From an uncultured Candidatus Peregrinibacteria bacterium (lineage in GTDB: Bacteria; Patescibacteriota; Gracilibacteria; Peribacterales; Peribacteraceae), in the NCBI GenBank assembly GCA_937863435.1, contig CALMES010000106.1, positions 1 to 64,000 on the forward strand: a DNA stretch of 64,000 bases, read 5' to 3'. Below the pieces are notes generated by a model. It made no database searches. It worked only from the letters and a program-made list of their open reading frames with translations, and had not been told where the DNA came from. Position numbers and translations under genes: made by a program. Positions 40,080 through 41,686 of the stretch are shown here, piece after piece. Positions within the stretch are counted from its first letter, which is position 1. Every line of letters begins with the position of its first letter.

Positions 40080-40156
40080 CGCGGGATGGAGCAGCCCGGT
40101 AGCTCGCCAGGCTCATAACCTGGAGGTCGCAGGTTCAAATCCTGCTCCCGCAACCA
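40080..40156 (+). tRNA. Initiator tRNA-Met (anticodon CAT)
   Basis: Cloverleaf with CGCGGGA/TCCCGCA acceptor and the C1-A72 mismatch that marks initiators, GGAGCAGCCCGGTAGCTC D arm, anticodon loop CTCATAA, T arm GCAGG-TTCAAAT-CCTGC, CCA encoded. The anticodon stem is CCAGG/CCTGG, so only two of the three usual G-C pairs are next to the loop. Confidence 0.95.
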
Positions 40157-40460: not shown

Positions 40461-40742
40461 ATGGCAACAAAAAAGGCCGGCGGGTCTACGCAAAACGGCA
40501 GAGATAGTTGGTCCAAACGACGTGGCGTAAAGCGCCACGACGGAGAGGTCGTCAATGCCGGAGAGGTTCTTATTCGTCAGAAAGGCTTCTGGTATCGTCC
40601 CGGTGACAATGTCTACGTTGCCAAGGACTGGACGATTCATGCTGAAATTCCAGGCAAAGTCTTCTTTCTCAAGAAGCGTGTTGAAAAGTTCAACGGCAAG
40701 CGCGAAATGGCGACGATCGTCGGTGTCAAAGCTGCTGCGTAA
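40461..40742 (+). CDS. rpmA: 50S ribosomal protein L27
   Basis: Large-subunit protein near the peptidyl-transferase centre. The 93-residue sequence has KKAGGSTQNGRDSWSKRRGV and VLIRQKGFWYRPGDNVYVAKDWT, diverged from the common RQRGTKFHPGxNVGxGKDHT but with the same layout. No cleavable N-terminal extension. rplU, its usual partner, is not adjacent. Its own strong promoter and terminator make it a single-gene unit. Confidence 0.94.
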   Translation: MATKKAGGSTQNGRDSWSKRRGVKRHDGEVVNAGEVLIRQKGFWYRPGDNVYVAKDWTIHAEIPGKVFFLKKRVEKFNGKREMATIVGVKAAA

Positions 40743-40765: not shown

Positions 40766-40790
40766 AAACGGTCCGAAAGGGCCGTTTTTA
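40766..40790. terminator. Rho-independent terminator after rpmA
   Basis: AAACGGTCC, loop GAAA, GGGCCGTTTTT. It ends at the stop codon of the convergent RhuM-like gene and has A and T runs on both sides. Confidence 0.88.
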
Positions 40791-41273
40791 TTTCTTTGCA
40801 ATCAACAGAGCTTTTTGCAGTGATGTTACTGCTTTTTCTAGTTCTTTTATGCGCATGGTCTGCTGTTCCTTTAAGCGTTTCTCGTTGATGGTAAACCCTT
40901 TCACGATGTGATTCTTCAGAATATTCGTTGCCCAGATGCGAAATTGGGTGCCTTGCTTGGATTTTACGCGATAACCGACGGAAATAATGGCATCCAGATT
41001 ATAATATTTTGTGTCATACATTTTGCCATCGGCGGCAGTTATCCGGAAATTCCGGATAACTGATTCTGGCTCTAACTCGCGCTCTTTGAAGATATTGCTG
41101 ATGTGTTCGGATACCGTGCGCACATCTTTACCGAAAATATCCGCCATCTGTTTCTGGGTGAGCCATACAGTTTCTTCCTGCAGGCGCACTTCCACTTTCG
41201 ATTTTCCTTTTACAGGCTCATAAACGATCACTTCTCCCATCGGATGAACGGTTTTATGGCGTAGTGCTGGCAT
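40788..41273 (-). CDS. RhuM-family protein, short form
   Basis: A 161-residue protein matching the N-terminal domain of the virulence RhuM family: VEVRLQEETVWLTQKQMADIFG, VRTVSEHISNIFKERELE, then KMYDTKYYNLDAIISVGYRV and QFRIWATNILKNHIVKGFTI, with a coiled-coil end. Full RhuM proteins are about twice as long, so this is either a short form or C-terminally truncated. It likely binds DNA; such genes often travel with toxin-antitoxin or phage-defence modules, but no partner is seen here. ATG 41240 is an alternative start. Confidence 0.82.
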   Translation of the reverse strand: MPALRHKTVHPMGEVIVYEPVKGKSKVEVRLQEETVWLTQKQMADIFGKDVRTVSEHISNIFKERELEPESVIRNFRITAADGKMYDTKYYNLDAIISVGYRVKSKQGTQFRIWATNILKNHIVKGFTINEKRLKEQQTMRIKELEKAVTSLQKALLIAKK

Positions 41274-41365: not shown

Positions 41366-41439
41366 GGGCGTGTAGCTCAGGTGGTTAGAGCTCAGGACTT
41401 ATAAACCTGCGGTCGGTGGTTCAAGTCCACCCACGCCCA
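41366..41439 (+). tRNA. tRNA-Ile with anticodon TAT
   Basis: Body is clearly tRNA-Ile type: GGGCGTG/CACGCCC acceptor, GCTC-AGGTGGTTA-GAGC D arm, T arm GGTGG-TTCAAGT-CCACC. The anticodon loop is CTTATAA, so the anticodon is TAT (reads AUA) and not the usual CAT modified by TilS. Base pair 31-39 is an A-A mismatch. CCA encoded at 41440-41442. TATGCT at 41351-41356 is its likely -10. Confidence 0.93.
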
Positions 41440-41686
41440 CCATTCGTTCAGGTTATATGCCACAGGCTTGGATTTATAGTGCATGTATGAATTGCTTTGG
41501 TTGGTAACTCATGTGGTGCCCGCGAAAGTATCGGTTGCACACTTGGGTACTGTTGACAAACAACGTGGAGCAGACGCCTGTGATTTACACCCGATTTACT
41601 TAACGATAAAGATAAGATTGCGAAGAATACTATCGGCTGGTCAATTGGCATGGTGCCTGCGAACATTCAGATCGAGCAATGATATT

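Follow-up and report, generated by a model that had tools for sequence, protein, structure and literature searches.

The tRNA-Ile(UAU) gene and its genome

The window, that is, the whole stretch of 64,000 nucleotides analysed here, comes from a draft MAG of Candidatus Peribacteria (Patescibacteria/CPR). On its plus strand, at 41366..41442, it carries a gene for tRNA-Ile(UAU) with an encoded CCA. ARAGORN called the gene, the Rfam tRNA model RF00005 matched it with 66.7 bits (E=2e-14), and orthologues were found family-wide. The gene was thus confirmed as intact, with a sound cloverleaf. The sequence-only reading had already recognised a tRNA-Ile with UAU and the loop CTTATAA; its start at 41366 stood, and its end shifted from 41439 to 41442 once the encoded CCA was included. 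The acceptor strand GGGCGTG (41366..41372, plus strand) is of the isoleucine type by acceptor stem identity and pairs with 41432-41438. The anticodon TAT (34-36; 41400..41402, plus strand) is preceded by T33 and followed by A37 and A38 within the seven-base loop at 41398-41404, and the stem is closed by a non-pair (41397..41405, plus strand) made of A31 at 41397 and A39 at 41405.

The neighbouring tRNA gene (40080..40156, plus strand), called by ARAGORN, has the CAU anticodon and a CGCGGG acceptor strand; it encodes the initiator tRNA-fMet and not tRNA-Ile2. Also near the tRNA-Ile(UAU) gene lie an rpmA-like reading frame (40461-40742), identified by eye, and an ORF of the RhuM family (PF13310) on the minus strand (40788-41273).

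The MAG comprises 2.14 Mb in 168 contigs and exceeds its relatives in size, nearly all of which have 0.8-1.8 Mb. It is 94.7% complete and 5.4% contaminated, so that the absence of TilS from this draft alone would be weak evidence, and the argument is carried by the relatives. Its CAU tRNAs are the fMet, one elongator Met (L020), and two odd ones without CCA (L029 and L049). Lack of an encoded CCA was also seen in L022, L039, L040, and L051, all the other tRNAs of the draft encoding it; the contigs that bear these six genes (C150, C67, C85, C47, C13, and C10) are likely of contaminant or mobile-element origin.

A possibility was that the tRNA-Ile(UAU) gene is itself phage-borne or a contaminant and stands outside the decoding system of the host. 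The contamination of the MAG and the foreign look of a few CCA-less tRNAs (L029, L049, and others) would fit such an origin. It would, however, predict that the gene is missing from close relatives, and the opposite was seen. Indeed, a genome of the same genus (G038) gave an identical 43-base core match, and the gene sits close to the host tRNA-fMet and the rpmA-like gene, several relatives carrying fMet at the same locus. A foreign origin is therefore extremely improbable.

TilS, tRNA-Ile2(CAU), and the spread of the UAU tRNA

The tRNA-Ile2 transcript of most bacteria has a CAU anticodon, in which TilS converts C34 to lysidine; this allows AUA to be read and the tRNA to be charged with isoleucine; TilS has been discussed as essential. 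The tilS gene occurs in nearly all bacteria (PMC12514573). The genome under study showed no match to PF01171 (ATP_bind_3) or to TIGR02432 (TilS N-terminal), with all controls positive. Loss of TilS had been predicted from the sequence, and the relatives bore this out. In a sample of 288 genomes of the GTDB class (57 of the Peribacteria family and 231 others), TilS scored above the cut-off in 210, every one of them among the 231 non-family members. None of the 57 family genomes did so, and many of these are 97-100% complete; two of them, G018 and G050, are single-contig genomes with 98-99% completeness. Three weak TilS/PF01171 matches in the family were examined and discarded, two being MnmA (L031 and L037) and one QueC (L032).

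The sequence-only reading had held tilS together with a functional tRNA-Ile(CAU) to be incompatible with its prediction. Neither was found in the genome: no tRNA-Ile2(CAU) appeared among all the tRNAs listed for the draft. It was likewise not found in 12 family genomes, in which the CAU genes matched with an elongator body were all of the elongator-Met type. TilS-bearing members of the class do show an Ile2-type CAU tRNA.

One exact pattern retrieved the UAU tRNA in 53 of the 57 family genomes and in a single one of the 231 other class members. Two further family carriers, G035 and G041, have C38 (the A38C form), and the UAU tRNA was matched by neither pattern in G001 and G059. A looser pattern gave a count of 74/74 for the family, which we did not use because it also matches other tRNAs. 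Among the TilS-bearing families of the class, one member of family f8 (G080) gave no match to TilS and has a UAU tRNA in which U31 pairs with G39, apparently an independent swap.

Across 211 Patescibacteria genomes, the UAU tRNA (two tRNA patterns combined) was present in 113 and TilS was above the cut-off in 59; both occurred together in none, and 39 had neither, which most likely reflects the limits of the patterns. With genomes treated as independent and shared ancestry ignored, the mutual exclusion of UAU tRNA and TilS gave a Fisher p of about 3e-26. The UAU tRNA is thus the main way to read AUA in the sampled phylum. A scan of named GTDB genomes with a DNA pattern for tRNA-Ile(UAU) that demanded A31 and R39 returned 51 stretches, almost all from Candidatus Peribacteria/Peregrinibacteria. 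Given this requirement, the scan served chiefly to put names to the carriers. A Kiritimatiellales match (L158) was rejected as a carrier; its sequence does not differ from that of a Peribacteria gene, and a binning error was assumed.

We also considered that TilS and tRNA-Ile2(CAU) might be hidden in assembly gaps or missing contigs, the UAU tRNA being an accessory extra such as occurs in some Lactobacillus. The MAG is indeed incomplete, and tRNA-Ile(GAU) was not found in it. The assembly is most likely to blame for this gap, since relatives, including one of the same genus, have the gene. Against hidden copies stand the contrast between 0/57 family genomes and 210/231 other class members with TilS, the complete or near-complete state of many of the former, to which the single-contig genomes add their weight, and the lack of any co-occurrence of the UAU tRNA and TilS among the 211 genomes of the phylum. 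We consider hidden copies very improbable. Instead, the UAU tRNA is very probably the only isoleucine tRNA with which this lineage reads AUA, lysidine having been abandoned and TilS and tRNA-Ile2(CAU) both being gone. With UAU encoded in the gene, wobble editing would be unneeded, and hence both would have disappeared.

AUA as an isoleucine codon and the methionine-like anticodon arm

The use of AUA, a check that the sequence-only reading had advised, was assessed in the genome itself. In about 140,000 codons, AUA amounts to some 7.2 per 1000 codons and 11% of isoleucine codons, values that are approximate because they come from stop-to-stop ORFs. The codon is therefore in use. Codon exchange was then scored on non-overlapping ORFs. 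The alignments with relatives covered 39 AUA positions, where the partners other than AUA coded mostly for Ile, Val, and Leu; Met accounted for 1.6% there, compared with 49% at AUG positions. Ile was favoured over Met by a log-likelihood ratio of 27 nats. The same comparison with E. coli gave 1.8 nats from 24 positions, too few to decide. The IleRS gene taken alone showed the same exchange pattern as the genome-wide set. By this alignment evidence, AUA behaves as isoleucine and not as methionine.

As for the anticodon arm, the sequence-only reading had noted the A31-A39 mismatch as unusual. The mismatch is real, but it is not a one-off: it runs through the lineage and is common to elongator tRNA-Met. 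In 37 distinct Peribacteria UAU genes, part of which came from a search requiring A31 and R39, the acceptor, D, and anticodon stems were paired in 37/37 save for 31·39, which was paired in 0/37 (27 A·A and 10 A·G). An unconstrained search of the class found A31·R39 in 52 of 53 family matches, G029 being the exception. In contrast, position 31·39 was a standard pair in 65/65 distinct UAU sequences from other Patescibacteria.

In the class, elongator tRNA-Met has A31·G39 in 10 of 11 distinct genes. The acceptor stem of the UAU genes is 73-74% identical to those of Ile1 and Ile2 and 40-45% to that of elongator Met, and their anticodon arm is 81-82% identical to that of elongator Met, with identities of 0.53 to Ile1 and 0.47 to Ile2, the latter outside the anticodon. 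In trees built without the acceptor stem, the UAU genes mixed with elongator Met, and with the acceptor stem they joined the Ile genes, both trees being mostly unresolved; the whole chimera comparison covers about 60-75 columns. The simplest reading of these similarities would be a remodelling of, or recruitment from, elongator tRNA-Met, giving a putative chimera in which the acceptor stem is of the Ile type and the anticodon arm of the elongator-Met type. Such an arm would explain the 31·39 mismatch. Similarity to elongator Met by convergence is also possible.

A methionine-like arm raised the question of a codon reassignment, AUA standing for methionine as it does in many mitochondria and the UAU tRNA then being a methionine tRNA. 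The arm and its 31·39 mismatch match elongator tRNA-Met and speak for this. However, the acceptor stem is of the Ile type, an ordinary elongator Met(CAU) exists in the genome (L020), and relatives show AUC, AUU, or codons for Val and Leu in place of AUA and hardly ever AUG, so that AUA as methionine is disfavoured by the same 27 nats or so. Reassignment is hardly credible on these grounds, and we retain the reading of the UAU tRNA as an isoleucine tRNA, which would insert isoleucine at AUA.

IleRS, U34, and TilS-independent decoding

The IleRS of the family aligned far better with structure 7d5c (E 4e-219), which we take to be a eukaryotic cytoplasmic-type IleRS, than with 1ffy (1e-94), presumably the S. 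aureus enzyme. By this alignment, it is classed as type 2 (eukaryote-like), and this resident enzyme probably charges tRNA-Ile(UAU). Since TilS-bearing members of the class have alignable IleRS of the same kind, type-2 IleRS probably preceded the swap of TilS for the UAU tRNA. In the IleRS alignment shown, the CPRCW motif was not seen, and the E. coli W905 site has no counterpart in this enzyme. MnmG (GidA) was above the cut-off in 0/74 family genomes, and MnmA was found in some family members. With MnmG absent, U34 is probably devoid of cmnm5.

The IleRS of the MAG (L182:3-4355, G000:C44) has two tandem RHG-type histidine phosphatase domains (PF00300) within the catalytic region. An insertion of PF00300 was also seen in L183, L188, L192, and L187, with one copy in genomes other than the one studied. 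In the IleRS of G077, a second PF00300 lies at a different site, and in G081, the insertion is absent from the alignment. PF00300-bearing IleRS also occur in TilS-bearing class members, so the insertion is untied to UAU decoding. In the IleRS of G078 (L195), acetyltransferase-like plus phosphatase-like insertions were recognised by eye and recall the NCBIfam model ileS_w_GNAT. In the literature searched, no paper combined IleRS with an inserted histidine phosphatase domain.

Mycoplasma mobile reportedly decodes AUA by a tRNA-Ile(UAU) (Taniguchi et al. 2013), with a bacterial-type IleRS that has a key Arg (Arg865) at the E. coli W905 site and with a ribosome proposed to handle the separation of AUA from AUG by rejecting AUG pairing with U34. 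M. mobile and Peribacteria share the lack of tilS and of tRNA-Ile2(CAU), the gene-encoded UAU, AUA as isoleucine, and a U34 that is unlikely to be modified at C5. The mechanism of Peribacteria belongs with TilS-independent UAU decoding of the M. mobile type. There are differences, though. The IleRS of Peribacteria is of type 2 and has no counterpart of the Arg/W905 site, and because the IleRS types differ, the Arg865 rule of M. mobile is inapplicable. The A31·R39 mismatch and the Met-like anticodon arm are features of Peribacteria, and the trait here spans the whole family and most of the phylum. As regards the TilS/lysidine pathway, which the sister families of the class have kept, the decoding task and the Ile-type acceptor stem are the same, whereas Peribacteria lack both the enzyme and the CAU tRNA and have an anticodon arm only 47% identical outside the anticodon.

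A bolder proposal is that the AUA tRNA of Peribacteria, as a remodelled elongator tRNA-Met, separates AUA from AUG by itself without lysidine, through its open A31·R39 arm and a U34 without cmnm5, the ribosome not being responsible. We regard this as rather unlikely.

A tRNA-Ile3(UAU) is known in Bifidobacterium, Mycoplasma, and Neorickettsia species, Nanoarchaeum, and Korarchaeum, organisms that likewise use a UAU tRNA instead of Ile2(CAU), and Patescibacteria are absent from the list given there (PMC8450103). The view from the sequence alone that UAU-type tRNA-Ile is known in a few bacteria understates its extent, given that over half of the Patescibacteria sampled have one. In the literature searched, no text brought tilS together with the term "Candidate Phyla Radiation", nor lysidine together with the term "Patescibacteria", and other literature may exist. 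AUA decoding of the M. mobile type was already known. The texts searched contained no mention of its dominance in CPR, of the Met-like arm, or of a type-2 IleRS paired with it. The extent in Patescibacteria, the open Met-like arm, and the type-2 IleRS make this a variant worth reporting.

The open A31·R39 arm, found in one family and paired in all others sampled, offers a specific, testable difference. The clean swaps, with none of the 211 genomes carrying both traits, provide a natural series for how U34 avoids misreading AUG. Patescibacteria account for a very large share of the diversity of bacteria. If most of them read AUA with a plain UAU tRNA, the textbook rule on TilS would hold mainly outside that radiation.
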